This document shows positions 4,289 to 23,256 of a stretch of 64,000 bases of DNA, one piece after another. The stretch is taken from the NCBI RefSeq assembly GCF_003697845.1, contig NZ_RDQE01000012.1, positions 1 to 64,000 on the forward strand. Direction: 5' to 3'. Every line of letters begins with the position of its first letter. Within the stretch, counting starts at the first letter, position 1. This DNA comes from Halobellus captivus (GTDB lineage Archaea > Halobacteriota > Halobacteria > Halobacteriales > Haloferacaceae). Made by a program: the position numbers and the translations under genes. Under the pieces are notes generated by a model that was given only the letters and a program-made list of their open reading frames with translations, had not been told where the DNA came from and ran no database searches.

Positions 4289-4289
4289 G

Positions 4290-4556: not shown

Positions 4557-5555
4557 ATGGTGGATTCAGAACGACCCTTAATCTCCGTCGTTGTCGGTGC
4601 TTACAACGAAGAAGACTCATTAGCCGACACGATTCAGAGCCTCCTTGGTCAATCGTTCAGTGATTACGAGATCATTATTGTTGACGATGGCTCAACAGAT
4701 AAGACAGCAGAAATTGCTAAGTCTTTTGAAGACACTCGTGTCCGACTTGTAGCTATAGACGAGAATATAGGGCTTCCTAAGGCATTGAATCGTGGAATTC
4801 AAGAGTCAGAGGGGGAGTACATTGCCAGAGCTGATGCGGATGAGTACTCTGATCCCTTTCGACTTCAGAAACAGCGATCGGTTTTTGAGGCAAATTCTGG
4901 CGTCCAAGCAGTTGGGTGTTGGTATGCGACAATCGGGCCAGATAACGAGAGGGTTGCGACGGTACAGGTGTCACAAAATCGTGACTTCGGAGTGAATGAT
5001 TTACTGAACAATGGACCTGGCATCGCTCATGGCTCTGTGATGATGCAGAAAGAAGCTATAAAGAGAGTAGGTGGATATCGTGAGGAATTTACCTTGGCTC
5101 AGGACTATGATTTATGGTTTCGCATGGCGGACGAGTTCGGTGAAGGCTGGCTTGACGTGGTGCCTGAAGTTCTCTACGAACGTCGCGTTGAAGCGCATCA
5201 ATTAGAGAAACGAGAACTGCAACGGCTGTTTGCCGAAACTGCGAGGAAATGCGCCAAACGACGACAGCGAGGAGAAGACGACACAGGGTTGCTCAAAGAG
5301 CTCTCCGACAGGGCTCAAGAAGTCGAGAGTCGCAATTTCAACTCTCGGGTGGCGACAGGAATGTATCACTACCTACAAGGGAATCACTTGTTGGAGCAGG
5401 GAAATCATACAGCTTCGCGCCATCGAGCGTTGAAAGCTATCTGGTTCGCTCCGACGAAACCCCGTCCATGGTATCTTTTACTCTTATCATCGCTACCAAG
5501 CGAATGGAGAGAAGCAGCGCAAAATTGGTCTCAAACCGTCTTCAGGGCGCGCTAG
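4557..5555 (+). CDS. Family 2 glycosyltransferase
   Basis: A 332-residue GT-A fold enzyme. Residues about 9-45 hold ISVVVGAYNEE and IIIVDDGSTDKT, the nucleotide-binding part. EYIARADADEYSDPFR (about 88-103) supplies the DxD metal site, and LAQDYDLWFRM (about 180) the catalytic-base region. The C-terminal 90 residues are helical and specific to this protein. It probably adds one sugar to a lipid-linked glycan at the cytoplasmic face. Base composition is clearly more AT-rich than the chromosome outside the island. Its 3' end overlaps the convergent methyltransferase gene by 14 bp. Confidence 0.9.
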   Translation: MVDSERPLISVVVGAYNEEDSLADTIQSLLGQSFSDYEIIIVDDGSTDKTAEIAKSFEDTRVRLVAIDENIGLPKALNRGIQESEGEYIARADADEYSDPFRLQKQRSVFEANSGVQAVGCWYATIGPDNERVATVQVSQNRDFGVNDLLNNGPGIAHGSVMMQKEAIKRVGGYREEFTLAQDYDLWFRMADEFGEGWLDVVPEVLYERRVEAHQLEKRELQRLFAETARKCAKRRQRGEDDTGLLKELSDRAQEVESRNFNSRVATGMYHYLQGNHLLEQGNHTASRHRALKAIWFAPTKPRPWYLLLLSSLPSEWREAAQNWSQTVFRAR

Positions 5556-6291
5556 AGCCACCGTTGGCTCCGGCTTCAAACACCATGATATTATCTACCG
5601 GCCACGTTTTCTCTGGAATTCGGGTATCTAACCTGGCAATGAGCGACTCAGATTCCTCCGGTAGGTAGTTTGCGTCTCTCTGTTCAAACTTCTCCACCCA
5701 GTACTTTCTCTCCTGCAAATTGATGTGGTGTGTCCCGTACTGGCCAGGTGGGGCAGCAGTGAATATGATTCTACCGCCATACTTGCTCCCAGAAATAATT
5801 GTACTAACTAGATTATCAGCGTAGATTGGATGAATGTGCTCTGCGACTTCGATACAGGTCACCACATCGTAACTCCCATCAATCGAAATTTCCTCTCGAA
5901 GATCGCCCTGACGCACAGAATCAACTAGCGCGTTCTCGACTGCCTTTGATGCACCCTCAATCCCGAAGACATTGATACTTGGTTGATTATCTTCGAACTT
6001 CTTGAGATAATGTCCGATTGCACAACCGATGTCAGCTACACTCTCAGGGTCGTACCTTCGAATCATCTCTGTGGTAAACTCTTCGGCAACTGTGTCGTGC
6101 GGTGGTTTCCTACGTTGAACGAAGTACTCCTCGGAGTATATTGAGTTAAGATTATTCAATTTAAAACGATCCAAAAATCGCAACATAGGGAGACGGAGAT
6201 AGAAACGAATCCAGCGTTGAGTAAAATACGCCTTCTTAGCAACCGGCTTAATAGAGTCAGGGAGAGTACTGTAAATCGATCTCAGTCTCAC
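5542..6291 (-). CDS. SAM-dependent methyltransferase
   Basis: A 249-residue class I methyltransferase. Motif I is VADIGCAIGHYLKKF (about residues 85-99), with a less usual Ala where the second Gly is common. The acidic end of strand 2 is FGIEGASKAVE, motif IV is YDVVTCIEVAEHI, and GGRIIFTAAPPGQ follows. The IEVAEHI motif and the genomic setting suggest methylation of a sugar in the surface glycan. It is the last gene of a three-gene minus-strand unit (AP-superfamily enzyme, flippase, methyltransferase); the gap to the flippase is 57 bp. Confidence 0.85.
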   Translation of the reverse strand: MRLRSIYSTLPDSIKPVAKKAYFTQRWIRFYLRLPMLRFLDRFKLNNLNSIYSEEYFVQRRKPPHDTVAEEFTTEMIRRYDPESVADIGCAIGHYLKKFEDNQPSINVFGIEGASKAVENALVDSVRQGDLREEISIDGSYDVVTCIEVAEHIHPIYADNLVSTIISGSKYGGRIIFTAAPPGQYGTHHINLQERKYWVEKFEQRDANYLPEESESLIARLDTRIPEKTWPVDNIMVFEAGANGGSSAP

Positions 6292-6348
6292 AGTAATCAG
6301 TAGGATTAATGCGAATATAATGGTTCCGTTTTGGCGAGTCGTAATAAA

Positions 6349-7815
6349 TCAGGATCGAGTCCCTCTTATTGTCTTGGATGCTTTTGACACCGCTTGGTTG
6401 ACTTCATCGGTTCTGAGAAGGTACAATACGAGCGTATAAGTCAAAATAGCCATAGGAATCGCAGAAGCTAGAAAGAGAAGTCCTCCAAAGAACTGAGTCA
6501 GAGAACTAACAAGAATCCATATAGCTCCTGATGCTCCCACGACTTTCGTACATAATTTGAGTTGATATTCAAATTTCATTATATTTCTACTATAGTTCGC
6601 AATCACACCGGTATATACTATATATGATATAAATGTCGCGATTGCAGCTCCTTGTATCTCCAATTCTGGTATTAGCATGAAATTCAGAATAATATTCACT
6701 AGTGCAGAAAATAGAAGAGCGGTCATCAGAAGTCTTGTTTTTTCTTCTAATTGAATGGGGTACGTGAGAATCTGACCAAGCCCATAAAAAAGAGACCCGA
6801 GGACGATCCAGGGAATAATCACTATAGTGTCATAGTACTCCTGCTCAACATATATTTGAACGAGGTCAGGGCCTATCGCTATCAAACCAACTGCTGCTGG
6901 GACACATAAGAGAATAAATAATCGAATCACCGTCTCGAAGCTCTTCGCCGCCTCTTTCCGACCCTTCGTTTCGAATACGCTCACCACTCTCGGATAAGTG
7001 GCCAATGAGATGAGTGAAAACGTCATAAAAACAACTCTATAGAAAATCTTGTATCCAGCAGCGTAGGTTCCCACTGCTGCAGCCCCTGAAATAACAAACA
7101 ATAAATAGTTGTCCGCGAGCTCGAGAACTCTCCCGCCGATCTGAGCACCAATGAATGGCAATCCGAAACTAGCAGACTGTTTCACCGTGCTAATGTCGAA
7201 GACGAACGACTTGTATAGGCCCTTGTTGTAGAGAATCAGCAATTCAACAATGCTAATCAAGCCAGAACCGATTACTAATCCTAATAGTCCCCCTAGCACA
7301 CCTAACGGGGTATAGATTATCACAGCAGCTGCAATACACAATTGAGCGATGGAGTTCGCACACACAAGCACCGTATATCGTCCAGCTCGATTTTCCGCTC
7401 TGCGAAGCGTGCTGACCAGCGAAAATGTACCCCGTGTTAGGACAAGGATGAGACCAGTTATACTGAATAGCACCCACTTAATTTCAATAGATTGTATAAT
7501 AAAAAATGTTGCTGACACCACAAGCAGTCCTATACCTAAAATGAGGAAGTAAGTGTTCAGAAGAGAAGATACCAACAATGAACTCTCTCCAGTCTGGTGG
7601 TATTTCTCGAAGTATCGTAACAGTGGTTGGCGCAACCATGATAAGACGAGGACTAAGCTGAATGAAACGCCAGTTAGTACTACAGTATACTCGCCATATT
7701 GATCATTTACGAGCAGTCTCGTCAAGACAACAACTGACAGAAAATTAATCAGAGCGGGAACAATTTTGGCGGGCGTGTACCTCAAGACGTCCGAACTGAG
7801 TCCACGATCAAGCAT
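6349..7815 (-). CDS. Oligosaccharide flippase (polysaccharide transporter family)
   Basis: A 488-residue integral membrane protein with about 12-14 hydrophobic segments spread evenly along its length. It starts with LRYTPAKIVPALINFLSVVV, typical of Wzx/MurJ-like exporters of the MOP superfamily, and has family-like segments LPFIGAQIGGRVLELADNYL and QIYVEQEYYDT. It would move lipid-linked oligosaccharide across the membrane. It starts 3 bases after the stop of the upstream AP-superfamily gene, which implies co-transcription. AT-rich codon use matches the rest of the left half of the island. Confidence 0.9.
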   Translation of the reverse strand: MLDRGLSSDVLRYTPAKIVPALINFLSVVVLTRLLVNDQYGEYTVVLTGVSFSLVLVLSWLRQPLLRYFEKYHQTGESSLLVSSLLNTYFLILGIGLLVVSATFFIIQSIEIKWVLFSITGLILVLTRGTFSLVSTLRRAENRAGRYTVLVCANSIAQLCIAAAVIIYTPLGVLGGLLGLVIGSGLISIVELLILYNKGLYKSFVFDISTVKQSASFGLPFIGAQIGGRVLELADNYLLFVISGAAAVGTYAAGYKIFYRVVFMTFSLISLATYPRVVSVFETKGRKEAAKSFETVIRLFILLCVPAAVGLIAIGPDLVQIYVEQEYYDTIVIIPWIVLGSLFYGLGQILTYPIQLEEKTRLLMTALLFSALVNIILNFMLIPELEIQGAAIATFISYIVYTGVIANYSRNIMKFEYQLKLCTKVVGASGAIWILVSSLTQFFGGLLFLASAIPMAILTYTLVLYLLRTDEVNQAVSKASKTIRGTRS

Positions 7816-7818
7816 TAT

Positions 7819-9327
7819 TTAAATATAGCCTAGGTCGCGAAGCGTATCTCTCACCGAATCTTCATATTCTGAGTTGATACCAACAGTTCCAAACGGTTCT
7901 ACAATCTCAAATAGCTTCGATTCTAAGTCTTCTTGATCTTGCAATTCATCCCCGTGTAATGGTATCTCACCGTTGATATCCACTTCCGACATTCTCTCTC
8001 TCCCATCTGAATGTATCGTCAATTTCCGGGCAGAAGAATCATATATCGTCTTTATCTCGAAATCGAGCTCTGAGTAATCTTGTTCTGGGTATTTTTCCAT
8101 AACTCGCTGAATACCGTCGAATGGAGAACCAAGATATTCAGCGACAGCGTAGTCACGTCCTTGCTCGTCTCTCGTTCGGGGCAGAGGTTGCGAATCTAAA
8201 CCAACCTCATCAGATTCGGAAACTCCGAGATTACATACCTGGTCAATGGTGGTGAACAGATCCACGGTCTGCACCAATTCTGAGATACGTTCTCCGCCTG
8301 TATCGCCAGGATAGGAGACTATAAGAGGTACTCGAAGGACTGCATCATTCAGTGAAAGTGAATGCCCCATGCGACCGAAATCACCGATATTCTCGCCGTG
8401 GTCTCCAACAATCACTACCAACGTATCTTTGAGGACTCCGCTCTCATTAAGTGATTTGACAATTTCTGAAATAGCTTGATCAGTTTGGCGCACAGCACCA
8501 TCGTAAAACGATTGAAGTAGCGCGAAGTCTTCATCATCCATATCGACGGCATTTGCATAATTATATAGTCGCGGATCCTGATTCACATCCGAGTACCCCG
8601 AGGTGCTGTGGTTAGGAGGTGCGACTTGTCTCAAAAATCCCTGATCCGGGATATATTTCAAGTGTGTTTCCATCAGGTTAATATATGTAAAGAAGGGTTC
8701 ATCGCTACCAAATACGATAGAATCAAAACTGTTGACGATCGAATTCGTACCTTTCGGCTCTCTTCGGCGATGACCAACGATAGACGTTCCGAGCAGTTTT
8801 GTTGCGAATTTATATGCCAAGTTAGACGCATCCTTGATATCCTTTTCCTCCCACAAGAATCCCGCTAAGTCCTCTACGAACGTTCTTGAAAATCCGTTTG
8901 ACGAAAATGACGACTTGATTTGAGAGTAGTCTGTATCGTTCGGAAACAACCGAGTTGGTATTTCAGTATAGTCAAACCCCGCATTCAGTCCATTTTCCAG
9001 TGTAAGTAGCTGATTCGCAGTCAGACAGTGCGTGGAATAACCCTTCTTGTTAAAGATCTTCGGAAGTGTAGGGATATGATTTGAGATAGAGGGATTACTT
9101 CGGGTTGCCCCATGTTTGCTCGTATAGAGTCCAGTGAACATTGATGCATGTGAGGGAACTGTCCAAGGTGAAGTGGATATCGTGTTCTCGTATACGTGAG
9201 ACTGCTCGGCGAATTCTTCTAAAAATGGGGTCGTATCTCGATCGTAGCCGTATAAAGAGAAGTTTCTGGCCCTGGCAGCATCTGAAACGATGAAAACGAT
9301 ATTAGGATTTACCTCAGTCGTCGTCAT
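7819..9327 (-). CDS. Sulfatase-fold (alkaline phosphatase superfamily) enzyme with Thr at the nucleophile position
   Basis: A 502-residue soluble protein with the AP-superfamily metal sites: Asp16 in VFIVSDAARARN, and GDHGEN with Asp309 and His310. The nucleophile segment is SPWTVPSHASMFTG (residues 53-66). Aligned with sulfatases (CxPSRxxxxTG), the Cys/Ser that becomes formylglycine is Thr56 and the following Arg is His60. Thr nucleophiles are known in phospho- and phosphonotransfer members, so a phosphotransferase or phosphodiesterase acting on the glycan is at least as likely as a sulfatase. It is the first gene of the unit with flippase and methyltransferase. It ends in LRDLGYI, like its paralogue at 13342-14799. 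Confidence 0.85.
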   Translation of the reverse strand: MTTTEVNPNIVFIVSDAARARNFSLYGYDRDTTPFLEEFAEQSHVYENTISTSPWTVPSHASMFTGLYTSKHGATRSNPSISNHIPTLPKIFNKKGYSTHCLTANQLLTLENGLNAGFDYTEIPTRLFPNDTDYSQIKSSFSSNGFSRTFVEDLAGFLWEEKDIKDASNLAYKFATKLLGTSIVGHRRREPKGTNSIVNSFDSIVFGSDEPFFTYINLMETHLKYIPDQGFLRQVAPPNHSTSGYSDVNQDPRLYNYANAVDMDDEDFALLQSFYDGAVRQTDQAISEIVKSLNESGVLKDTLVVIVGDHGENIGDFGRMGHSLSLNDAVLRVPLIVSYPGDTGGERISELVQTVDLFTTIDQVCNLGVSESDEVGLDSQPLPRTRDEQGRDYAVAEYLGSPFDGIQRVMEKYPEQDYSELDFEIKTIYDSSARKLTIHSDGRERMSEVDINGEIPLHGDELQDQEDLESKLFEIVEPFGTVGINSEYEDSVRDTLRDLGYI

Positions 9328-9463
9328 TACATAGATGGGAATCTTTATAACTACTAAAGCATATTGATATCACTAGCTTTGTGAGGTACTAATACTTGGT
9401 AGTCGAGTATATTCAACTGAGACGCAAGGTTGATTATAACGCTAGATTAAGAGGTTTATATTC

Positions 9464-10681
9464 GTGATGAGAGAATATAACAGTCCCGATGTATTTGAAA
9501 AGATAATTAACGGACTTCTTGTACTCTATGTCGTTACATCTCCGCTATACTTTCTTCGCTTAGGGACAAACATCGTTCCTACTGACTTTATTGGAGGAGT
9601 TCTAATCATACTCTGGGTAATACAAAGATCATACAAAAATGATAGAATTCTAATTCATTCTATTTATATTATCCCAGGTCTTCTGTCTGTGATTTCTATA
9701 GCCTCTACAATTTACGCCCCGTATGAACTTGAAGCATTTCCTTCTGGAGTCCTATTGCTGAATTTATGCATGATATCTATTATTATATACAATCGTATAA
9801 TCAAATATTTTCGATACGAAAAAAAAATTATCCAATTAATTATTTTATGGATGATAGGTGCGGTTACTGCAACTATTACTATATTTATTAATGAGATCAT
9901 AAATGTTGGAATGAGGGCAATAGCCCCGTCATATTCATATAGCCATAGGACACAACTTCCTTATCTGCTTGTCGTTACTGCTATTATATCAATTTATCTA
10001 TACAGATACTACGACGTAAGAAATCGGATTTTCGGCAAAATTAGTTCTATTTGTACATACCAATTTTCTATCTTTATATTATTCATTTCAATATCACGTG
10101 GACCTTGGATAGCTCTTACAGGTGTTTTACTCCCATCTTTCCTATTTTATAAGAACATCCGGAAAGATATAATTAAACTAAATATACCTAGTCTAGTTTT
10201 CAGTATAATAGTAGCGATATTCTTTGGACAACTTCAGCGGGTACTTGAGAGAGTAGCATCAATAGTTCAGCCAAACAATACAGAAACTTCTGCTAGATTG
10301 GAGATATATAATGAAGCACTAGATGTAGTATCTTCAAAACCAATGACCGGGATCGGTTGGAATAATTATTCTGTCATATACGATATCGCTGGGAGTGCAC
10401 ATTCCACTTACTTAACTATTAGCTCCGAGTTAGGAATACCTGCTCTCCTATTGTATATTCTTATTCCAATCGTTCTATCACGGGATTGGATGCGGATTGT
10501 ATCATCGGAGAAGCTTAGCTCAACCAATAAGCTTCTATACTTGGCACCCCTGGCAGGGGTACTAGGGCTCCTTGTAGGCCAAGTATTTTCCACGGCCATA
10601 CTATGGTTTCGTGCGTATTGGGTCCTTCTTAGTATTAGTGTCGCCACAATCACGATAGGTTCACATTCTAGTATTCGATAG
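9464..10681 (+). CDS. O-antigen ligase/polymerase-like membrane protein
   Basis: A 405-residue polytopic membrane protein with about 10-11 hydrophobic segments. The family loop is recognisable: KPMTGIGWNNYS followed by AHSTYLTISSELGIPALLL (about residues 288-330), the pattern seen in O-antigen ligases and Wzy-like polymerases. It would join or extend glycan repeat units at the outer face of the membrane. It is the most AT-rich gene in the window by eye, with many ATA and AAT codons, which fits horizontal origin. It is divergent from the AP-superfamily gene across a 136-bp AT-rich promoter region. Confidence 0.8.
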   Translation: MMREYNSPDVFEKIINGLLVLYVVTSPLYFLRLGTNIVPTDFIGGVLIILWVIQRSYKNDRILIHSIYIIPGLLSVISIASTIYAPYELEAFPSGVLLLNLCMISIIIYNRIIKYFRYEKKIIQLIILWMIGAVTATITIFINEIINVGMRAIAPSYSYSHRTQLPYLLVVTAIISIYLYRYYDVRNRIFGKISSICTYQFSIFILFISISRGPWIALTGVLLPSFLFYKNIRKDIIKLNIPSLVFSIIVAIFFGQLQRVLERVASIVQPNNTETSARLEIYNEALDVVSSKPMTGIGWNNYSVIYDIAGSAHSTYLTISSELGIPALLLYILIPIVLSRDWMRIVSSEKLSSTNKLLYLAPLAGVLGLLVGQVFSTAILWFRAYWVLLSISVATITIGSHSSIR

Positions 10682-10699
10682 TATTCTGATGAGTTGACC

Positions 10700-11090
10700 A
10701 CTCTTCGGAGATTGTTGGTCGAGTAGAGCTGTCGCTATGAAAGCGTAGCAGGCAAGGGTGACGCGGCAGTATCATCCGAATTCCAATATTCTCATTTAAA
10801 TTGCTTAGCTCAGAGGTGAGTGTCGCGAACCTGCTCCAGCAGGTTCGCTGGCACGATGACCTCTGCTGCCCGCACTACCGGTCTAAGGCAGTGATCGAAC
10901 ACAGCAGCTACGGGAGTATCAGAGGTATCTCTGTAAGACATTCTTGGGTAGAGGATTGTTGGTCAATTCTCAGCAGGAGCTGGAAAGCAGGCAAGGGTGA
11001 CGCAGTGGCGTCACCCGATGAACAGTGTTCCCTATCAAGATGTTCGTGTCGGAGCGTCGCGCCGCAGATCTGCTGACACAGATTCGCTGG
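10700..11090 (+). mobile_element. Two nested relics of an IS1595-type transposase 5' end
   Basis: The stretch around 10801-10930 reads VANLLQQVRWHDDLCCPHYR, then VIEHSSYGSIRG, matching the N-terminal zinc-binding part of IS1595-type haloarchaeal transposases (usual pattern LLxQxRWRDG, CPxC, IxxGSY). A second start follows at about 11040-11095, MFVSERRAADLLTQIRWCDG. The non-coding leader in front of each also repeats: GCAGGCAAGGGTGACGC occurs near 10750 and near 10990. Both copies break off soon after the start and carry frameshifts. They are dead fragments. Confidence 0.7.
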
Positions 11091-11094
11091 TGTG

Positions 11095-11400
11095 ACGGCA
11101 TAGCGAAGATGGTACTCGTCGCTGTCCCGGTTAAGCACACCGACGAGTCGGAACGCTCGGGTCGTGCTGACGCTCGACTCTCGCTTACGGTCGAATGAGA
11201 GGGTGATTTAGACATCGATTTCCTGTCGCTACAGGTCGTCAAGGACGTCCTACAGCGACTCACCTTCGAGTGAAATACTGCTTCCTCGCCACGTGCAAAG
11301 CTCTTCGACGATCTCGAAGTTCGCGTCATGCTTAACATGTGAGACGAACCAGCCGTCGTTCTGGTCAATACGGTCGAACGGCGGTGTTCAGATAAGCCTG
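11095..11400 (-). mobile_element. Internal relic of an IS4-type (ISH3/ISH51-like) transposase
   Basis: Read on the minus strand from about 11390, the sequence gives FDRIDQNDGWFVSHVKHDAN, then FEIVEELCTWRG, then LSFDRKRESSVSTTRAFRLV, then GVLNRDSDEYHL. This is the central catalytic part of haloarchaeal IS4-type transposases. Several in-frame stops interrupt it (for example after EGES and before RQEIDV). It abuts the IS1595-type relics of the opposite strand, so at least two elements entered here and decayed. From 11400 to 11680 no gene is recognisable. Confidence 0.7.
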
Positions 11401-11681
11401 AGAGTAATATTCGCCAGGAGAACGCCTCTCACGACAGAACCCAGCCGAGAGCAACGATCTGGTGAGGAGAAGTGAAACTGATCGTGGCCGAATCAGCGTT
11501 CGGAATATTCAGCTCGCTCACCTATCAAACGGAGCAATTCACGGACCTCCACAACGATATTACTACAAGTTTTATCTGATCACTACCTACTGAAGAGCAA
11601 CAATTCTTTATACTTGAGTGTGTTGTCACGCATAGACCGCTACCGGTGAACTGATTAGGCCGGCCATACCTCAATTGACTA

Positions 11682-12776
11682 ATGATACGTGTGGCCGCTC
11701 TACTCGGAGTTCTCCGTCATACGACTATCGCGTACGAGATATCCGAGCATATCGGTCAATTCCCTAATATCGAAATGACTGTTATCAGTTATAACGACTC
11801 TTTGATCGATGACTTGGAGATCGAGATCGACACCGATGTTGTGACTGTCAAAACTCTTAATGCCTCTAACCGACTTGACCTGAGAGCTATCTCAGAGTTA
11901 CATGATCTTCTCCGAAATGAGTCCTTCGACCTGCTTCACACCCATCATAACTTTGTGGGATCGCTCGGCTGTATGGTTGCTCCTTCCGATCTGCCGATCA
12001 TCGATACAGAACACGCCAATCACAAGGATCACTATTCAGTCGCACAGAATCTTGTTAATTCTGTAACTCTTGGGCGTGCAAACCGAGTTGTCGCTAACTC
12101 GCAAGCGACACTTGATTCGTTGTATCCACACGAACGGGTACTTGTTCCTTCAAATCAAAGATGTGTGATATACAATGGAGTTGATGTAGATTGGATCGAT
12201 ACCTCCACTAAAGATAAAACATGGAGGACTGATTCCCCACGGGTCACGACAGTTGGGCGATTGATCCCTGTGAAAAACCAAGAGACTCTCATCAATAGCT
12301 TCTCAGCTGTTCTTGACAAGGTACCTGACGCAGAGCTTGTCATTGTTGGTAGTGGACCCAGACAGTCAGCACTTGAAAAGATAGCCGAATCCAACGGAAT
12401 TCAGGATAGTATTACGCTAACGGGCGGAGTGTCCCGAGAAGAAGTATATAATATACTTTATTATTCAGATGTGTTCGCTCTTTCATCGTACTCTGAGGGA
12501 TTCTGTGTCGCATTGCTGGAGGCTATGGCAAGTGGTTGTCCACCTGTCGTCAGTAATATCCCAGTGCTACATGAGGTCGCTGGCGATACGGCTGTGTTCG
12601 TCGATCCTGAGGATACTGAAGGATTCTCAGCCGAAATCACGAGACTACTTGATGATGAAGATCGATATCAGAGATACTCTATAGAGACAAGAGAACGCGC
12701 ACGAACGGTCTTTTCAATAAAGCGAACAGCTGAGGAGTATCTCGATCTCTATCAAGAAGTCGCAGAAGGATCATGA
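11682..12776 (+). CDS. Family 4 glycosyltransferase (GT-B)
   Basis: A 364-residue GT-B enzyme. The N-terminal acceptor domain includes FDLLHTHHNFVGS (about residues 85-97). The C-terminal donor domain includes VTTVGRLIPVKNQETLI, LVIVGSGPR and the E(x)7E motif in SEGFCVALLEAMASGCPPV (about 275-293). Such enzymes transfer a nucleotide-sugar residue with retention. It stands alone, between IS relics upstream and 565 bp of empty AT-rich sequence downstream, so its operon context may have been lost. Composition is moderately AT-rich. Confidence 0.9.
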   Translation: MIRVAALLGVLRHTTIAYEISEHIGQFPNIEMTVISYNDSLIDDLEIEIDTDVVTVKTLNASNRLDLRAISELHDLLRNESFDLLHTHHNFVGSLGCMVAPSDLPIIDTEHANHKDHYSVAQNLVNSVTLGRANRVVANSQATLDSLYPHERVLVPSNQRCVIYNGVDVDWIDTSTKDKTWRTDSPRVTTVGRLIPVKNQETLINSFSAVLDKVPDAELVIVGSGPRQSALEKIAESNGIQDSITLTGGVSREEVYNILYYSDVFALSSYSEGFCVALLEAMASGCPPVVSNIPVLHEVAGDTAVFVDPEDTEGFSAEITRLLDDEDRYQRYSIETRERARTVFSIKRTAEEYLDLYQEVAEGS

Positions 12777-13341
12777 ATGAATCAAACAAATATATCCATA
12801 AATTGAGGAATATTTCGAATGTCCAGTCAATTCACTACTTGAGACAAAATATTCTCCGTAGATCCATTATCGATAATACGAATTAGATGAATAATTATAG
12901 TGGTGTCGATACTGTATTTAGATCAAAAATTGAAAGTATACATATTAAATTAACATTAAATGTAATATTTGGAGCGTTCGTAAATGCTTGAATTCGGTCA
13001 CTCCGGCTCGGTTTCTAGGATCACAATCCTTGACAATTCGTCACTCACAGCCTTAATCGAACGTGGAATGGAGTTGGAAGGATCACGTTTCAATGTACAG
13101 ATCTAAGACTCCACACCCTTTCCTCTATCTCTACGGTCAGCCAGTCTCAGAATAAATCAATAGAGAAATGTAGTTTAAGAGATTCAAACTAGATAAAATC
13201 GGCAGAAAATCTAAGAGAACCGCGATCTAGATGCTCGTAGAAGAGAAATGATAATAGATAGAAGAAAAAATACAATTACCCGAAAAATAATATAATGTAT
13301 GGAAATTCGATGAAAACAAGGCAGAAACGATCTCCCAATCT
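12777..13341. other. Gene-free AT-rich stretch
   Basis: No convincing gene. On the minus strand 12998-13106 gives a 35-codon open stretch ending VSDELSRIVILETEPE that looks protein-like but has no start and no recognised family; it may be a relic. The last 150 bases are very AT-rich and should contain the promoter of the gene starting at 13342. Confidence 0.5.
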
Positions 13342-14799
13342 ATGACCAACATCGCCCTCATCGTAATGGATACCGCCCGGTACGATTCGATACTGGATAC
13401 CCGGGCAAAGCTATCGACCTTCGAGACCCTCCGAGAGGAAGGCACGACATACACCTCCGCGTTCGCGAGTGCCCCGTGGACGCTCCCCTCACACGGAGGG
13501 CTCTTCTCCGGGCGGTACTCGTCGAGACACGGCGCGAGTGCGGCCGCGAAACGCTTCCCGGAGAGCGTTCCCACCGTCGTCGAATCGTTCGCGAACGCCT
13601 CCTACGAGACGGTCGCCGTCTCGAACAACACCTGGATCAGTGACGAGTTCGGGTTCGCCCGTGGGTTCGACACTTTCCGGAAGAACTGGCAGTACATCCA
13701 GTCTGACGTCGACCTCGGGAAGATCGCCCGAGAGGAGGAGGGATTCGACAAGATACGCGGCGTCGCGAGACAGCTGTTCGACGGGAACCCGATCGTCAAC
13801 GCCGCGAACGCGGTATACGGACAGTTCGTCAGGAAGCGGGCCGACGACGACGGCGCGAAGGGGACGAATCGATGGGTGGCCGATTGGCTCGACGACCGCG
13901 ACGACTCGAACCCGTTCTTCCTGTTCATCAACTACCTCGAACCACATCTCGAATATCGCCCACCCGAGGAGTACACGGAGGAGTACCTCCCCGAGGGTGT
14001 GAGCTACGCGGAGGCGATGGAAGTCAATCAGGACGCCTGGACGTACATCGCGAACGACGTCGAGATGACCGAACAGGACTTCGAGATCCTCGAAGGGCTC
14101 TACCACGCGGAGATCGCCTACCTCGACGAGCGCATCGGCGAGCTCCGCCGACTACTGGAGGAGGCGAACGAGTGGGAAGACACCGTCTTCGTCGTCACGG
14201 GCGACCACGGCGAGAACATCGGCGATCACGACCTCATGGACCACCAGTACAGCCTCCACGACACGCTGATCCACGTGCCGCTCGTGATCCACGGGGACGC
14301 GTTCACGGGCGGGGAGACGGTCGACGACCTCGTCCAGTTGACCGACCTCGCGCCGACCCTGCTCGATGCGGCCGGAATCGAGAACGACGAATTCGAAGAA
14401 CAGTCACAGGGCCGGTCGTTCCATCCGGATTCCGAAACCGAACCACGGGAGTACGCCTTCGCCGAATATCTGGCTCCACAACCCTCGATGGAGGCACTCG
14501 AAAAGCGCGTCGGCGATCTACCCGAGGAAGTGTACGAGTACGACCGATCGCTCCGAGCGATCCAGAGCGAGGACTGGAAGTTGATCCGGGGCTCGGATGG
14601 GTCGACCGAACTCTACCACGTTGCCGAGGATCCCGACGAACTGAGGAACCTCACTGCGGATCGTCCTGAGAAAGTCTCCGAACTCGAATCTGAACTCGAC
14701 ACGTGGCTCGACTCGTTCGACCACGCCGACGTAACGGGTGACGTCGACATGAGCGACGAAACCAAAGACCGGCTGGAAGATCTCGGCTACCTTCAGTAG
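13342..14799 (+). CDS. Sulfatase-fold (AP superfamily) enzyme with Thr at the nucleophile position
   Basis: A 485-residue paralogue of the protein encoded at 7819-9327. Metal ligands are visible as Asp10 in IVMDTARYDS and Asp288/His289 in GDHGENIGDHDLM. The nucleophile segment APWTLPSHGGLFSG puts Thr47 where sulfatases have the modified Cys and His51 in place of Arg. The late part ELYHVAEDPDELRNL (about 425-440) is the usual sulfatase C-terminal strand, and the protein ends LEDLGYLQ. The gene is GC-rich, unlike its paralogue, so the two probably arrived separately. Sulfate or phosphate chemistry on the surface glycan is inferred from context only. Confidence 0.85.
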   Translation: MTNIALIVMDTARYDSILDTRAKLSTFETLREEGTTYTSAFASAPWTLPSHGGLFSGRYSSRHGASAAAKRFPESVPTVVESFANASYETVAVSNNTWISDEFGFARGFDTFRKNWQYIQSDVDLGKIAREEEGFDKIRGVARQLFDGNPIVNAANAVYGQFVRKRADDDGAKGTNRWVADWLDDRDDSNPFFLFINYLEPHLEYRPPEEYTEEYLPEGVSYAEAMEVNQDAWTYIANDVEMTEQDFEILEGLYHAEIAYLDERIGELRRLLEEANEWEDTVFVVTGDHGENIGDHDLMDHQYSLHDTLIHVPLVIHGDAFTGGETVDDLVQLTDLAPTLLDAAGIENDEFEEQSQGRSFHPDSETEPREYAFAEYLAPQPSMEALEKRVGDLPEEVYEYDRSLRAIQSEDWKLIRGSDGSTELYHVAEDPDELRNLTADRPEKVSELESELDTWLDSFDHADVTGDVDMSDETKDRLEDLGYLQ

Positions 14800-14899
14800 G
14801 CGATCGACTCCAGACAAGCGGTTATATTACACGTTAGTAAATTCCACAGAACTCAATAAATAACCTATCATAATTATGTTTTAAAGTTCTATTTTGTTT

Positions 14900-16012
14900 C
14901 TAACAGAGTTCAAGGAGTTCTCTTGAAGTCTCTTCTACTGTCTCAGACCACGAAAATTCAGCTTCAACGGTTTTTCGCCCATTCCGTCCATACTCCTCGC
15001 GTGTCTTGTCATTATTGAGGAGACATTTAACCGCGGTACACATACCTTCCGTATCACCCCACTCTACGGTTGCTCCGGCTCCCGAAACGACATTGACGAT
15101 TTGATCCAGATCCGTACACACTACTGGAGTTCCGGATGCCATCGCCTCCATGACGACGCGCGGGAATCCCTCTGCCCTGCTCGGCAGTAGCAACACGTCC
15201 GCCGTCCGGAATATCTTCGGCATATCGTCGTAGTCAACTAGGCCCAGGAACTCCACGGTCGATTCCAGCCCCCGGGCCGCCACGTCCGCTTCGAGCTCCT
15301 CACGAAGCGGTCCGGATCCAACCATGTACAACCGGACGTTGGGATGATCCGCCTGCAGGCGTTCGATCGCATCGATCGCGTGGTGTGGTCCCTTACCCTC
15401 GACGAGCCGTCCAACGAACAACACGCTCGGTACGTCATCGTCGATCAGTTCGCTTGTGAGTCCGTCAGGATGGAACTTCTCTGCGTCCACTCCATTGGTG
15501 ATCACTTCAATGTCGGTCGTAACGCCGATCTCTCTAGTCGCCTCCCGCTCCGCATCCGTGTAACAAAAGACGACATCCGCGCTGTTGAGCGTCCATCGTC
15601 CGATCGTTTTCAGATAGTACGAGAACAACCGATCCGGAGCTGACTGCGAATACAGGGAGTGGTTCGTGATCGCGAGCGGTATATCACCCAACCATCGCTT
15701 CAGCGCCGCGAGGTTCGTGCTAAAGTAGAAGTGGGAGTGGGCGTGGATCACGTCGAACTCTTTCGCTCCGAGGATCCGGCGGGCCGCCGTGACCGAGATC
15801 TCGTTTTTTAAAAGGTTCACCGTCGTGGGACAGTAGACGATCTCGTATCCATGGCGAGTTTCCCGTCGGACTCGATCGACGTCATCCGTCACCTTTAGAA
15901 CGGTCACATCGTGACCCATCGCCGCCTGATCACGACTCATTGCGTGGACGTGGTATTCACCGCCACCGATCTCGTCCGGGTACAACCAGTGGCTCACACG
16001 AAGGATCCGCAT
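14900..16012 (-). CDS. Family 4 glycosyltransferase
   Basis: A 370-residue GT-B enzyme. Start MRILRVSHWLYPDEIGGGEYH, acceptor-domain signature FDVIHAHSHFYFSTNLAAL (about 85-103), donor-domain signature SVLFVGRLVEGKG, and the E(x)7E motif in RAEGFPRVVMEAMASGTPVV (about 280-300). It is the last gene of a minus-strand unit with the polysaccharide deacetylase and formyltransferase genes. A paralogue truncated after about 150 codons lies upstream of that unit at 17755-18294, so this glycosyltransferase was once duplicated. Confidence 0.9.
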   Translation of the reverse strand: MRILRVSHWLYPDEIGGGEYHVHAMSRDQAAMGHDVTVLKVTDDVDRVRRETRHGYEIVYCPTTVNLLKNEISVTAARRILGAKEFDVIHAHSHFYFSTNLAALKRWLGDIPLAITNHSLYSQSAPDRLFSYYLKTIGRWTLNSADVVFCYTDAEREATREIGVTTDIEVITNGVDAEKFHPDGLTSELIDDDVPSVLFVGRLVEGKGPHHAIDAIERLQADHPNVRLYMVGSGPLREELEADVAARGLESTVEFLGLVDYDDMPKIFRTADVLLLPSRAEGFPRVVMEAMASGTPVVCTDLDQIVNVVSGAGATVEWGDTEGMCTAVKCLLNNDKTREEYGRNGRKTVEAEFSWSETVEETSRELLELC

Positions 16013-16068
16013 CTATCGGGTCACCTCGGGAGCATCCGTCCAGAACCTGTCGATACGTCGCTTCCAGG

Positions 16069-16881
16069 TCATACACTCTCACCGATCGGCTCCCAATCAA
16101 ACGCGGAGAGGAGACGCTCGAATTTACGCTCCGTTCGTTCGATATTCGTGTAATGTCGGGCACGATACTGCCACTTAACGTCATCGACCCGCGGCTGATC
16201 TGGGTCGAGTTCCCACGGATGGAGATAGAACACGCAGTCACGCTGCGTTGCGATCCGCTCCAATCCACGTCGATAAACTGAGTAGGGAATAACTCTGAAA
16301 TATCCCCCACCCGCCCACGGGATCCGCGTGACTTTGGCATCAATGAGTGGAAGTTGTACCTCGGTGAACCCGTCACGGATCTCCGTGAACGTCTCCGCGG
16401 AGTCAACACTCAATCCGCCGTACCGATCATGAACCGGTGCGGCAAAGAGACTCGAATCGTATTCGAATCCGAGATCGTCAAGCACGTCGATCGCCCAGTC
16501 GGTGATCGAGAAGCTTGGTGCGCGATAGCCGCGAACCCGCTGGCCCGTGATCGTCTCAAGCAGGTCTACCGATCGAGCGATGTCCGCACGAACGTCTTCC
16601 GGCTCCTGTTCGTAGAGGAGCCTATGATTGTATCCGTGGCTAGCGATCTCGTGCCCCCGGTCCGCGATCTCTGCGACGAGTTCAGGAGCTCGGTCGGCGA
16701 CGTGACCTAACACGAAGAAGGTCGCTTTCGTGTCGTGTTCGTCAAGCAGGTCAAGAATCCGGTTTGTACCGTGTTGGACGCGAAGTTCGTACTCGTCCCA
16801 CTGATCTCGATCAAGGCCATTCCAGAGGTTGTGCGAGTGAAACCAGTCTTCGACGTCGATAGAGAGATACATGTCGCTCAT
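16069..16881 (-). CDS. Polysaccharide deacetylase (NodB fold with DUF3473-like end)
   Basis: A 270-residue carbohydrate esterase 4 type protein. The catalytic Asp pair lies in YLSIDVEDWFHSH (residues 5-17), and the zinc site HxxxH in HEIASHGYNHR (His86 region). RGYRAPSFSITDWAIDVLDDLGF and the late IPWAGGGYFR and FYLHPWELDP motifs are typical of the exosortase-associated branch with a DUF3473-like tail. It would remove an N-acetyl group from an amino sugar. Its start overlaps the stop of the upstream formyltransferase by 4 bases (ATGA), so the two are translationally coupled. Confidence 0.9.
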   Translation of the reverse strand: MSDMYLSIDVEDWFHSHNLWNGLDRDQWDEYELRVQHGTNRILDLLDEHDTKATFFVLGHVADRAPELVAEIADRGHEIASHGYNHRLLYEQEPEDVRADIARSVDLLETITGQRVRGYRAPSFSITDWAIDVLDDLGFEYDSSLFAAPVHDRYGGLSVDSAETFTEIRDGFTEVQLPLIDAKVTRIPWAGGGYFRVIPYSVYRRGLERIATQRDCVFYLHPWELDPDQPRVDDVKWQYRARHYTNIERTERKFERLLSAFDWEPIGESV

Positions 16882-17645
16882 ACGAGCTGGTTTCCCCGCC
16901 TCTGGAACTCCCTTCGATCGCTCTTCGTCGGAAAAGAGAAGTACGAGCCCTCGCCAGTCATCTCCGTAGTCGCTTCCGTTCCCGCCGCGATCTCGTTGAT
17001 CGCCTCCGCAACAAGTCGACCGCCCTCCCGTTTCCCTCTCAGTATTGCGTCGTCAAGAGTCGTGTTCGTGTCTATCGGAAAGGTTCGCTGTTTCATGATC
17101 TGACCCCTATCGATTTCTGGAACCATCGTGTGTACCGTGGTCCCGATCTGATCTTCACCGTGATACAGGGCCCAAAACGTCGGGAGCATTCCCCGGTATT
17201 TCGGCAACTCCGCCGTGTGGACATTTAGACAGTACTGGTTCGGTACGTCGAGTAATTTTTCATCGAATATCTGTGATGCCGAGACCGACAATAGGACGTC
17301 GATATCAGTAGCATCTACCCATTGGATATAGGTATCCTCATTGATACCATCACGTTTCTCGACGGTTATTTCGTGCTTCTGAGCCACTGAATCGACAGAA
17401 TATGTACCGATACCGATCCTATCGGATATCTTTCTACTTGTATACGCGACTGATCGACGAAGGAAGTGTATTGGTCCATAGAAATCGAGCATACGTTTGG
17501 CGAATACAGGTAACGTTTCATCAAGAAGGTCAAGGATCGTTATACGTTCGACGACTACATCATCTAGTCTTGGAAGAAATTCTTGAAAGAAGGTGGGCAT
17601 ATAAAACGGGTCATCCTGTGTGACGATCGCGATTCGGAGCGTCAT
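16878..17645 (-). CDS. Formyltransferase family protein
   Basis: A 255-residue relative of methionyl-tRNA formyltransferase and of the sugar N-formyltransferases. The catalytic triad region is visible: Asn in NQYCLNVHTAELPKYRGM (residues about 140-157) with His148, and Asp in VPEIDRGQIM. Substrate binding is likely to N-10-formyl-THF. Coupled to a deacetylase and a glycosyltransferase, it most simply formylates an amino sugar set free by deacetylation. N-terminal MTLRIAIVTQDDPFYMPTFF carries the Rossmann strand. It is the first gene of the three-gene unit. Confidence 0.85.
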   Translation of the reverse strand: MTLRIAIVTQDDPFYMPTFFQEFLPRLDDVVVERITILDLLDETLPVFAKRMLDFYGPIHFLRRSVAYTSRKISDRIGIGTYSVDSVAQKHEITVEKRDGINEDTYIQWVDATDIDVLLSVSASQIFDEKLLDVPNQYCLNVHTAELPKYRGMLPTFWALYHGEDQIGTTVHTMVPEIDRGQIMKQRTFPIDTNTTLDDAILRGKREGGRLVAEAINEIAAGTEATTEMTGEGSYFSFPTKSDRREFQRRGNQLV

Positions 17646-17754
17646 CTACGACCTTCGAAAATTGAATCCAGAGATCGGTTCAGCCGACTCTGTGCTACGC
17701 GAGAGGTTCGCATCCGCCCTATAGTTCAAGAGGACTAGTTAAGTGAATTCGGAT

Positions 17755-18294
17755 CTAAACGGGCTGAGACGAAATCTGACTGGAGTTTGGTACACGTTCC
17801 AGAGGAGAGGATACCTGCTCTGTGTCTACCTCCGTGTAACAGAACACCACGTCCGCCTGGTCGAACGTCCACCGCCCGAGCGTCTTCAGGTACCACCGAA
17901 AGACGCGTTCGGGTGCCGACTGCGAGTAGAGCCCGTGGTTCGTGATCGCCAGCGGGACGTCCCCGAGCCGCGCTTTCAGCGCCGCCATGTTCGTCGCGAA
18001 GTACAGGTGTGAGTGCGCGTGGATCACGTCGAAGTCGTCCGAATCGGCGTGCCAGAGGTATCGCGCCACCGCCGGCGAGACGTCGTTGCCGATCACGGAG
18101 ATCCCGGGATCGACCCGGAGCACGGTGTACCCGTGCGTCTCCTCGACCCGCGGCAGCGACTCGTCGACTCGCGTCGTCAGTACCGTCACGTCGTGGCCCA
18201 TCGCCGCCTGGTCGCGGCTCATCGCGTGGACGTGGTACTGCCCCCCGCCCTTCGTGTCCGGATACAGGTGCTGGGCCACCCGGAGGATTCGCAT
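17755..18294 (-). pseudogene. Family 4 glycosyltransferase, N-terminal half only
   Basis: Starting at 18294 (MRILRVAQHLYPDTKGGGQY) the frame follows the acceptor domain of the glycosyltransferase encoded at 14900-16012 closely, including FDVIHAHSHLYFATNMAALK and TNHGLYSQSAPERVF. Similarity stops at VVFCYTE (about residue 158). The next 20 residues are unrelated and end at a stop. The entire donor-binding domain is missing, so the product cannot be an active transferase. Confidence 0.85.
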
Positions 18295-18499
18295 TCGACC
18301 TCGAGTTGGACACCGCAATACACAAGCGTGCCGATTCGCCGACGATCGGCCCACAGTTCCACGTCAACCACGACACCGAGTATACACAGATTCTGTATGA
18401 TGTGGCGTGGCAACGCGAAAGAACAGCTCCATCCGCGACGACCGAGAGGGATGGATTCAGGAGAAGGTCAAACCCCGAGGCACTCGGTCTGCCTACCTG

Positions 18500-18975: not shown

Positions 18976-18993
18976 CACACCCCGTACCGAGTG
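18976..18993 (+). repeat. Origin recognition box 1
   Basis: CACACCCCGTACCGAGTG. The identical 18-mer occurs in inverted orientation at 20574-20591 on the far side of orc1. The next repeat begins exactly 69 bp to the right. Confidence 0.85.
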
Positions 18994-19044
18994 AAGACGG
19001 GGTCGATCGAGGCTCGATGGGACCGATCCGTCGACGCCGACACC

Positions 19045-19062
19045 CACACCCGATACCGAGTG
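19045..19062 (+). repeat. Origin recognition box 2
   Basis: CACACCCGATACCGAGTG, differing from box 1 at two positions and in the same orientation. It starts 69 bp after box 1 and 69 bp before box 3. Confidence 0.85.
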
Positions 19063-19113
19063 AAATCAGTCCCCGATATGAACGGTCCGTCCGTGACTGG
19101 CCGTGGATACTAT

Positions 19114-19133
19114 CACTCGGTTTTGAGTGTGTG
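19114..19133 (-). repeat. Degenerate inverted origin box 3
   Basis: CACTCGGTTTTGAGTGTGTG keeps both ends of the box (CACTCGG and GTGTG) but has lost the centre. It is in inverted orientation relative to boxes 1 and 2, starts 69 bp after box 2, and borders the AT-rich stretch. Confidence 0.55.
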
Positions 19134-19203
19134 ATACGTCATAATACTATATTTAATAAATATTAGAAAGGTCCTATTAGGCTTCTAAACCGGTTACAAT
19201 AGA
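19134..19203. other. AT-rich stretch in the origin, candidate unwinding element
   Basis: About 70 bp with runs such as CATAATACTATATTTAATAA, bordered by box 3 on the left and box 4 on the right, directly upstream of orc1. This is where a duplex unwinding element is expected in archaeal origins. Confidence 0.65.
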
Positions 19204-19206
19204 ACT

Positions 19207-19220
19207 CACTCGGTACGAGG
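19207..19220 (-). repeat. Inverted origin box 4, next to the orc1 promoter
   Basis: CACTCGGTACGAGG is the conserved half of the box in inverted orientation. It lies 6 bp upstream of the TATA-like element of orc1, so binding of the initiator could also control its own transcription. Confidence 0.7.
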
Positions 19221-19225
19221 TCGAT

Positions 19226-19236
19226 GGATATATACC
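19226..19236 (+). promoter_or_regulatory. TATA-like element of orc1
   Basis: GGATATATACC lies about 27 bp upstream of the ATG at 19258, placing the expected transcript start at or just before the start codon (leaderless mRNA, common in haloarchaea). Confidence 0.6.
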
Positions 19237-19257
19237 GGATACCGTTGACACACTACT

Positions 19258-20454
19258 ATGACGGAACGCGGCGATATCTTCGAAACGGGGGAGATATTCA
19301 GGGAGCGAGAGCTGGTTCGCGTCGGCCACGTCCCCGATCTCGATCGTGTCGTCGGCCGCGACGAGGAGATAGAGTCGATGGGGAGCGCGCTCGCTCCCGC
19401 GATACGGGGCGGTCCGCCCGAGACGACGATCGTCTATGGAAAGACCGGGACCGGAAAGTCACTCGTTACGAGGTGTGTCACCAGGGAGGCAACACGTCGC
19501 GCGGCGGCGGACGGGAACACGTTCGCATACGCCTATATCGACTGCTCGGACTACGGAACCGAAGCGCAGGCGAGTCGGCAGATGGCGCGTGAGCTTCACG
19601 AGCGGCTCGGCGACGCCGTCGACGATCGCTCGATCCCCCGGCGCGGTATCGGGGCCGCGGACTACCGCGACATCACTTGGGAACTGCTCACGGAGGGCGA
19701 CGTCGACGCGTTTGTCGTTGTCCTCGACGAAATCGACAAACTCGACGGCGACGCGCTCCTACGGAGCCTCTCGCGCGCACGGGAGAGCGGGAAGGCGGAC
19801 ACGTTCGTCGGGGCGATCTGTATCAGCAACAAGATCGAGTACCGCGAACGACTCGGCGAACGCGTCGATTCCTCGCTCCAAGACAACGAACTCGTCTTCG
19901 ACCCCTACGACGCCACACAGATCGAGGCGATCCTCTCCCGTCGCCGGGACGCATTCGCGGAGGGCGTCCTCGACGACGGTGTCATCCCGAAGACCGCAGC
20001 GCTCGCCGCCCGCGAACACGGCGACGCCCGAAAGGCGATCGATATGCTGTACGAAGCGGGGCGACTGGCCGAACAGGAACGGGCCGATCACGTCACGGAA
20101 GCACACGTCGATGAGGCCGTCGATCGTGCGGAAATAAACCGGTTCCAGAAGCTCGTGAGCGGACAGACGCCGCACGTGAAACACATCCTCCGGGCGCTCG
20201 CACTCCTCACCGAACGGGCCGATACACGGACGTTTCGCACCGCGGAAGTGTATGACGCGTATCGGAAGGTCGCCGAGCAGGCCGGTACGACGCCGCTGAG
20301 CTACGACCGTGTCCAGCGCCTCCTCAAAGAGCAGGCGTTTCTCGGCGTCACGGAGAGCAAACACACGGGCGGTGGCCACGGCGAGGGGAGCTATCGAGTC
20401 CACCGCCTGCTTCGATCACCGGAGATCGTTACGAGAGGACTCGATGACCAGTAG
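19258..20454 (+). CDS. orc1: Orc1/Cdc6 replication initiator
   Basis: A 398-residue AAA+ initiator. Walker A is GKTGTGKS (61-68), Walker B LDEID (156-160), and sensor-1 lies in GAICISNKIEYRERL. A C-terminal winged helix (about 300-395) would bind the origin boxes. The start at 19258 fits the TATA-like element. The gene is bracketed on both sides by origin recognition boxes, the normal sign that the encoded paralogue serves the adjacent origin. Haloarchaea carry several orc1/cdc6 paralogues; which one this is cannot be told from the sequence alone. Confidence 0.95.
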   Translation: MTERGDIFETGEIFRERELVRVGHVPDLDRVVGRDEEIESMGSALAPAIRGGPPETTIVYGKTGTGKSLVTRCVTREATRRAAADGNTFAYAYIDCSDYGTEAQASRQMARELHERLGDAVDDRSIPRRGIGAADYRDITWELLTEGDVDAFVVVLDEIDKLDGDALLRSLSRARESGKADTFVGAICISNKIEYRERLGERVDSSLQDNELVFDPYDATQIEAILSRRRDAFAEGVLDDGVIPKTAALAAREHGDARKAIDMLYEAGRLAEQERADHVTEAHVDEAVDRAEINRFQKLVSGQTPHVKHILRALALLTERADTRTFRTAEVYDAYRKVAEQAGTTPLSYDRVQRLLKEQAFLGVTESKHTGGGHGEGSYRVHRLLRSPEIVTRGLDDQ

Positions 20455-20504
20455 CCGGTGACGAGTAACTGGTAACCTACCACCAGGTCCGATCAGCTGG
20501 TACT

Positions 20505-20524
20505 CACTCGGTACGAGGGGTGTC
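20505..20524 (-). repeat. Inverted origin box 5, downstream of orc1
   Basis: CACTCGGTACGAGGGGTGTC, inverted relative to boxes 1-2. It starts 50 bp after the orc1 stop codon and 69 bp before box 6. Confidence 0.8.
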
Positions 20525-20573
20525 TCTACTTGACCGTCGCTCCAATTCGACTCGACCGTACCAGACGAGTGTA

Positions 20574-20591
20574 CACTCGGTACGGGGTGTG
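20574..20591 (-). repeat. Inverted origin box 6
   Basis: CACTCGGTACGGGGTGTG is the exact reverse complement of box 1, 69 bp after box 5. Boxes 5 and 6 mirror boxes 1 and 2 across orc1. Confidence 0.85.
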
Positions 20592-20611
20592 TCCCGATCT
20601 CAGAGAGGATC

Positions 20612-20903
20612 GATCAATAGTGGCAAAAAGGAGACGATCGACCGAATCGTCGACGAACTCGAGTTCGTGACGGAAGCGACGAGGGTACTCGCTCGAAAGC
20701 GGTCACTCGAACGCGAGGAGTATCTCGCCGATCGGGAACAACAGGCGATCGTCGAACGAGAGTTCCAAGTTGCCATCGAAGCCTGTATCGACATCGCCGA
20801 ACTGCTCATTCGTGATTCGACGGAAGAGATGTCTCCCACCAACGCCGAAAAGTTCGATCGTCTCGAACGACTGGACGGGCTCTCCGAGGAGACGACGGCT
20901 TGA
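20612..20903 (+). pseudogene. HepT-type HEPN toxin, C-terminally truncated
   Basis: The frame reads ETIDRIVDELEFVTEATRVL, then EYLADREQQAIVEREFQVAI, then EACIDIAELLIRDSTEEMSP, a clear match to haloarchaeal HepT toxins. It ends at LDGLSEETTA, before the second half of the fold, which should contain the catalytic R(x)4-6H motif. No start codon is visible near the true N-terminus; the only in-frame start (GTG at 20520) would translate origin boxes. No MntA partner is adjacent. The remnant therefore cannot be an active nuclease. Confidence 0.75.
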
Positions 20904-22363: not shown

Positions 22364-22450
22364 TCGGATCGCCGGGAGCGGTCGCACGTGTGGCGTTTCC
22401 GTATGGGGTGCGCCACAAGGGTTATTTGCTCGCGGCGGGTTGGATCTCAT

Positions 22451-22807
22451 ATGAGCAGGGACGAACGCGAGGACTCCGGTCGGTACGCCGAGAGGGTCAC
22501 GCTCGATGCCGTGCTCGGGGTCTTCGGAACGGTGGAGGGGCCCGTCGTCACCTCGGGCGACGTCGCCGAGGCGCTCGACTGTTCCCGGGAGACCGCGCGT
22601 CGGAAGCTTCACACGCTCGAGGCTCGAGGACGGATCGCTGGTCGAGAGACGGCCGGGCGGATCGTCTGGTGGATCGTCGACGACCGAGCGCCCGCACGTG
22701 GGATCGATCCGGACGATCCGTTCTGGGAGTTCGACCCCGGCGCGTCGGGAGAGTCGGACGTCTCCGAGCGCGTCGATGACGTGCTATACGGCGAGGAATC
22801 GGCATGA
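22451..22807 (+). CDS. Winged-helix antitoxin of a PIN module
   Basis: A 118-residue protein with start MSRDEREDSG at 22451, chosen because upstream codons are not protein-like. Residues about 15-75 form a winged helix: VTLDAVLGVFGTVEGPVVTS, then DVAEALDCSRETARRKLHTL. WWIVDD closes the wing. The C-terminal tail is acidic with FWEFDPG. Its stop overlaps the start of the PIN gene by 4 bases (ATGA), so it is the probable antitoxin and autoregulator. Confidence 0.8.
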   Translation: MSRDEREDSGRYAERVTLDAVLGVFGTVEGPVVTSGDVAEALDCSRETARRKLHTLEARGRIAGRETAGRIVWWIVDDRAPARGIDPDDPFWEFDPGASGESDVSERVDDVLYGEESA

Positions 22808-23256
22808 ATGAGACGGGCGCGATCCCCGTGTTCGTCGATACCGGCGCGTTCTACGCACGAGCAGATGCGGACGACGAACATCACGCGGATGCGCTCCGGC
22901 TCTTCAGTGGCGTTCGATCCGGCGAGATCCCCTACCGACCGATATACACGTCGCAAGCCGTGCTCGCCGAGTTCGCGACCTTGGCACTCTACAAACTGGG
23001 CCACGACACCGCCACTCGGGCACTGGCCGCCATCCGAGACTCGAACAGCGTGAACGTGATCCCGGTCGGCGAACACGCGTTCGAAACTGCGGCAGCGCGG
23101 TTTGCAGACTACGACGACCAAGAGATCTCGTTCGTGGACCACACGACCGGCGTCCTTGCCGACGAGCGTGACGTCGAACACGTCTTCGCCTTCGATTCCG
23201 ATTTCCGGACGCTCGGGTTCTCTCTCGTTCCTGCCGACGTGAACGTTCCCGAATAG
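22804..23256 (+). CDS. PIN-domain toxin (VapC-like)
   Basis: A 150-residue PIN nuclease. Acidic active-site residues are visible: Asp12 in PVFVDTGAFYARAD, Glu59 in QAVLAEFATL, Asp106 near EISFVDHTTGV and Asp125/Asp127 in HVFAFDSDFRTLGF. Cleavage of RNA is the usual activity. It is translationally coupled to the winged-helix gene upstream and appears intact. Confidence 0.85.
   Translation: MNETGAIPVFVDTGAFYARADADDEHHADALRLFSGVRSGEIPYRPIYTSQAVLAEFATLALYKLGHDTATRALAAIRDSNSVNVIPVGEHAFETAAARFADYDDQEISFVDHTTGVLADERDVEHVFAFDSDFRTLGFSLVPADVNVPE

Follow-up and report, generated by a model that had tools for sequence, protein, structure and literature searches.

The window analysed here (the whole 64,000-nucleotide stretch of DNA) contains an orc1/cdc6 initiator gene set amongst repeated, ORB-like sequence boxes, and so raises the question of whether gene and boxes together form an origin of replication and, if they do, which features of the box arrangement matter to it. 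The preliminary description of the locus answered with a regular 69-bp period and two mirrored arms; we are led instead to a conserved 93-bp module upstream of the gene, and to a box that lies inside the gene itself.

Gene and boxes of the predicted origin

The Orc1/Cdc6 gene that adjoins the predicted origin is full-length and encodes both an AAA+ and a winged-helix domain (TIGR02928, Cdc6_lid, Cdc6_C); amongst archaeal Orc1/Cdc6 proteins of solved structure the sequence relatives of its product are 2v1u and 2qby, and the sequence itself makes the fold clear. The genome holds about a dozen orc homologues. This one is patchily distributed across the genus (Halorubrum relatives), its orthologue sits on the main contig (~3 Mb) in two relatives, and a low-GC stretch adjoins both orc1 in the window and its orthologue in two other genomes; the patchy gene and low-GC neighbour fit the description of haloarchaeal accessory origins located in variable regions (PMC3528665, PMC4441112), and we take the locus to be a predicted accessory orc1/cdc6 ‘replicator–initiator’ pair of a known haloarchaeal kind.

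Scanning with CACTCGGTACGGGGTGTG as the reference motif, and counting mismatches for each match, we find five matches at ≤3 mismatches in the window where 0.06 are expected. Genome-wide (3.6 Mb), the motif occurs at ≤2 mismatches only five times, all of them at the orc1 locus, and one of the matches with 3 mismatches adjoins a paralogous orc gene. The family-specific ORB consensus reads CACTCG[G/T]T[A/G]YGAGGTGTG; the repeated ORB elements in the intergenic DNA by orc1 carry a G-string, with ends GGGGTGTG / GAGGGGTG that are kept in orthologues, and boxes are also found at the orthologous orc1 genes of many genera, across families. A paralogous orc elsewhere (L002; G000:C22:8334-9476), of 52% identity, has its own box type, CACTCTGGACGAGGGGTG; here box and initiator have diverged together.

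Features of the orc1 locus, with positions in the window
Feature	Position	Strand	Evidence or remark
ORB-like box 1, CACTCGGTACGGGGTGTG	18976..18993	-	0 mismatches
ORB-like box 2, CACTCGGTATCGGGTGTG	19045..19062	-	2 mismatches
Distal + box of 93-bp module, CACTCGGTTTTGAGTGTG	19114..19131	+	4 mismatches; place and orientation kept in 26/27 non-redundant orthologues
AT-rich stretch with TATATTTAAT-type element, candidate duplex unwinding element	19132..19206	.	72% AT
Proximal + box, truncated form CACTCGGTACGAGGTCGA, candidate operator	19207..19224	+	4 mismatches; 93 bp from distal box
TATATA, likely orc1 core promoter, ~26 nt 5' of ATG	19229..19234	+	sequence; promoter role putative
orc1/cdc6 initiator gene, 398 aa	19258..20454	+	TIGR02928 366 bits, Cdc6_lid, Cdc6_C; 2v1u 168.6 bits
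Intragenic ORB-like box CACTCGTTACGAGGTGTG, Walker A codons S-L-V-T-R-C-V	19460..19477	+	2 mismatches
Downstream box 5, CACTCGGTACGAGGGGTG, candidate titration site	20505..20522	+	2 mismatches
Downstream box 6, CACTCGGTACGGGGTGTG, candidate titration site	20574..20591	+	0 mismatches

The preliminary description listed six matches flanking the gene, and their starts are correct; those at 19114 and 19207 are weak, however (4 mismatches each), and the 2-mismatch box at 19460-19477 was overlooked. Its observations that the boxes at 18976 and 20574 are exact reverse complements, and that the AT-rich stretch (19132-19206) is confined to the left arm, both hold. Inverted ORBs are present (minus boxes at 18976 and 19045 against plus boxes at 19114 and 19207), the minus boxes standing 5' of the plus boxes in nearly all orthologues, at varying number and spacing; the AT-rich stretch lies between two plus boxes, yet inside the outer inverted pair 19045(-)/19207(+). 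Directly 3' of the initiator gene there is a cluster of two plus ORBs, at 20505 and 20574; orthologues have between 0 and 5 such downstream boxes, mostly on the plus strand, and several lack this right arm altogether. Taken as a whole, homology and anatomy (the Orc1/Cdc6 gene, the G-rich box ends, the inverted boxes, the AT-rich element and conservation across families) lend good support to the original reading of the locus as a predicted replication origin. In two genomes we followed GC skew and gene orientation for 320-400 kb about the orthologue; they display no turning point and are uninformative.

As to the neighbourhood, a low-GC island (window positions 4000-18000; 41-57% against ~68%) bearing sugar/polysaccharide genes ends beside the origin. 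Near the origin, 17755-18354 (-) is a truncated copy of the glycosyltransferase gene at 14900-16012, which it resembles in its first ~170 residues—a partial duplication remnant. On the other side, a small HepT-like (HEPN) toxin-type ORF (20520-20903, +) lies directly 3' of orc1, its profile match spanning about two-thirds of the family; boxes 5 and 6 fall in its presumed promoter region. Further along, at 22388-23256 (+), an HTH protein overlaps a PIN-domain protein, forming a VapBC-like pair.

Spacing of the boxes and the 93-bp module

The 69-bp intervals of the preliminary description are correct when measured from start to start. From 19045(-) to 19114(+), however, the distance is 66 bp from centre to centre, because the box is asymmetric and these two face opposite ways; the centre-to-centre distances in the window are thus 69, 66 and 69. 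In flank scans of orthologues drawn from within the genus, the family and the order, we observe spacings of 66, 69 and 69 in the sister species (Orc1 96% identical) and of 195, 83 and 67 in the next relative (Orc1 85%); amongst 106 adjacent spacings at 27 non-redundant loci, 69 bp is seen five times, three of these in the window. The 69-bp spacing is therefore not kept in relatives, where spacings scatter widely—the outcome that the preliminary description had itself named as counting against it—and outside the 92-95 bp class we detect no helical phase (27 loci; Rayleigh p 0.06-0.67).

We consequently give virtually no credence to a fixed 69-bp spacing with initiators on opposite helix faces and two mirror arms around orc1. 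Three such distances in the window's strain, two of them retained in the sister species, speak for it; one sister interval is already 66 bp, though, and elsewhere the variable, unphased spacings deprive the ‘opposite faces’ proposal of its basis. Nor do the arms mirror one another, the left reading - - + + and the right, which several orthologues lack, + + with no AT-rich stretch. The spacing model is already refuted as a conserved feature, and the 69-bp period, rejected as a functional rule, is on these comparisons a peculiarity of the window's strain.

The plus boxes at 19114 and 19207 are a different matter: they lie 92-95 bp apart in 25 of the 27 non-redundant orthologues, with a mode of 93 and mostly at exactly 93 or 94. 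Both match the motif weakly, and that at 19207 was left out of the earlier 69-bp period. Between them, a TATATAAA-like element situated ~37 nt from the start of the distal box recurs in orthologues; the proximal box, which is truncated (CACTCGGTnCGAGGTCG), leads straight into a TATA-type element (TTTA/TATA in orthologues), the AT-rich position after it also being conserved. Across diverged orthologues, TATATAAA and the promoter TATA stay in register with the 92-95 bp pair, upstream coordinates in relatives being approximate by a few codons, as orthologue starts were placed by their distance from the Walker motif.

A TATA element ~26 nt before the ATG is as expected for a leaderless haloarchaeal transcript, and we expect the orc1 transcript to be of this type. 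As the proximal box abuts the TATA element, Orc1 bound there should compete with the basal transcription machinery. The invariant module would at the same time delimit the core in which DNA is unwound and helicase loaded, its boxes sharing one orientation, unlike the textbook inverted pair.

A box within the Walker A codons

Some 200 bp into orc1, the box at 19460 encodes residues S-L-V-T-R-C-V of the Walker A motif. We compared 27 orthologues with pairwise identities below 88%. The fourth residue is Thr or Ala in 19 of them, and all but one (18 of 19) have the codons TCA CTC GTT (A/G)CN (A/C)GG TGT; in the other eight it is Ser, and none of these has an intact box. Within the Thr/Ala class, synonymous conservation along the gene peaks at the six codons for SLVTRC (z 5.9), and no position anywhere in the gene attains this value in 500 rounds of codon shuffling within each gene (observed 0.81; permuted gene-wide maximum 0.635). 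Random synonymous recoding of orc1 arrives at ≤2 mismatches in only 4 of 3000 trials.

The intragenic copies also vary as the intergenic boxes do. Their substitutions fall at box positions 9 (A/G), 11 and 12, just where the 143 intergenic boxes differ from one another, and wobble positions 2, 5, 8, 14 and 17, fixed in the intragenic copies, are strongly conserved in the intergenic ones; since the selection of the 143 boxes fixed positions 13-14 and, in part, the first eight, it is chiefly the other positions that lend this comparison its weight. On the protein tree, rows with and without the box are interleaved, the well-supported branches forcing at least five changes under a slightly looser box rule that counts one Ser orthologue as box-bearing. 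A crude repeat search of the other Orc families of these genomes, which have clear boxes of their own, produced no comparable intragenic copy, the few matches being GC-rich coding words of no box character; the idea that Orc genes in general contain such boxes was discarded on these grounds.

We conclude that the DNA sequence of this stretch is under selection beyond its protein, most simply as an Orc1 site, and a box preserved in codons of the ATP-binding loop in many genera suggests that the initiator binds its own gene. It is not essential, because eight Ser orthologues and one Thr orthologue of the 27 are without it. Its absence from the Ser class is best regarded as a correlation, one that would not fully explain loss of the box, since the T that Ser would impose at position 9 is tolerated in some Halorubrum distal boxes. 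On balance we favour a ‘dual-coding’ site, in which P-loop codons of Orc1/Cdc6 serve at the same time as an Orc1-binding box that haloarchaeal families have conserved; the need for binding would constrain the codons, and perhaps also the choice of residue between Thr/Ala and Ser.

The conserved block might alternatively belong to the initiation machinery, as an extra Orc1 site that aids MCM loading or sets fork direction to the right of the unwinding element, and not regulate orc1 expression. It is strongly conserved and shares the orientation of the module's two plus boxes; it lies ~250-270 bp from the proximal box, however, at a spacing not fixed between genera, and Ser-class orthologues are without it even though most have the full upstream module, which makes such a role unlikely in our view. 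That the Walker A codons are conserved for another reason altogether (RNA structure, translation control or DNA-level recombination), with the likeness to a box incidental, we hold to be very improbable: these codons are in principle a possible place for codon constraint, and only a single short block is involved, but that block matches the box, tolerates the same substitutions as intergenic boxes, and is under a constraint that is weaker where the same protein family has Ser and that was not seen in other Orc families.

A wider doubt concerns the locus as a whole, which could be a decayed or dormant origin within a genomic island, its boxes now serving regulation only. The patchy occurrence of orc1 in the genus, the low-GC flank and a GC skew that carries no signal would all agree with this, and there are haloarchaeal precedents for origins that lie dormant with their boxes intact (PMC4595724); yet boxes, module and open frame are strongly conserved across families, which argues for present function, and we think dormancy rather unlikely.

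Proposed mechanism and relation to known systems

Our preferred reading, which we consider likely, is of an accessory origin at which Orc1 additionally occupies the promoter and the start of orc1, as a means of autoregulation or titration; binding, unwinding site and repression or titration are all putative. Orc1 would recognise the family-specific ORB. The origin core would lie 5' of orc1 and comprise the inverted minus boxes followed by the rigid 93-bp module of two plus boxes, with the AT-rich TATATAAA-type element inside the module as the site of unwinding and MCM loading. Orc1 at the proximal box, abutting the TATA element, and at the Walker A box would be bound to its own promoter and early coding region; once enough had been made, orc1 would be shut down or Orc1 soaked up, whether by repression, roadblock or titration. 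The downstream boxes may add titration, as at H. hispanica oriC2D, and with their number ranging from 0 to 5 between orthologues they would be a tunable extra rather than part of the core. Should this be correct, the codons of the initiator's ATPase motif, and perhaps the residue too, are constrained because Orc1 has to bind its own gene. The intragenic box is in any case a concrete candidate for an autoregulation or titration site, and one that silent recoding removes whilst leaving the protein unchanged.

Amongst known systems, one parallel is that of Vibrio cholerae chromosome II, where the operator of the rctB promoter is a truncated initiator site and further sites titrate the initiator (PMC3937223); this bacterial initiator and its sites are unrelated to those of the window, and the comparison is one of analogy only. 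In Sulfolobus oriC1 (ORB3-DUE-ORB2), an AT-rich unwinding element likewise sits between two initiator boxes within ~130 bp, but these are inverted around the element, whereas the bracketing boxes of the window point the same way (PMC12141716).

For the separate control of several archaeal origins, oriC2D is one negative element that has been dissected in haloarchaea (PMC3936714): in Haloarcula hispanica this ORB cluster 3' of cdc6E lowers oriC2 activity, likely by titrating Cdc6E. The window's orc1 is alike in having extra ORBs directly downstream of the initiator gene, with two where oriC2D has 11 (PMC3936714). The initiators themselves probably belong to different Orc families. Paralogues of Halorubrum lacusprofundi, from what we take to be its oriC2-homologue region, are ~34% identical to the window's Orc1.

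The haloarchaeal orc/cdc6-adjacent origins surveyed by Wu et al. 2012 (PMC3528665) similarly have cognate family-specific ORBs with a G-rich end, inverted boxes and an AT-rich element, in patchy, variable regions, and in some of them the gene is flanked by boxes left and right. The survey dealt with intergenic regions only, as did a second (PMC4595724); a box inside the gene, selected in many diverged lineages, is beyond the reach of such searches. The portion of Wu et al. 2012 (PMC3528665) covered here contains no description of an intragenic box or of a conserved 93-bp same-orientation pair, and a search of the main texts of open-access articles brought up no initiator gene with an ORB inside it. 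We view the origin as a new member of a known haloarchaeal kind, with two features that look new, the box inside orc1 and the same-orientation module of 93 bp.
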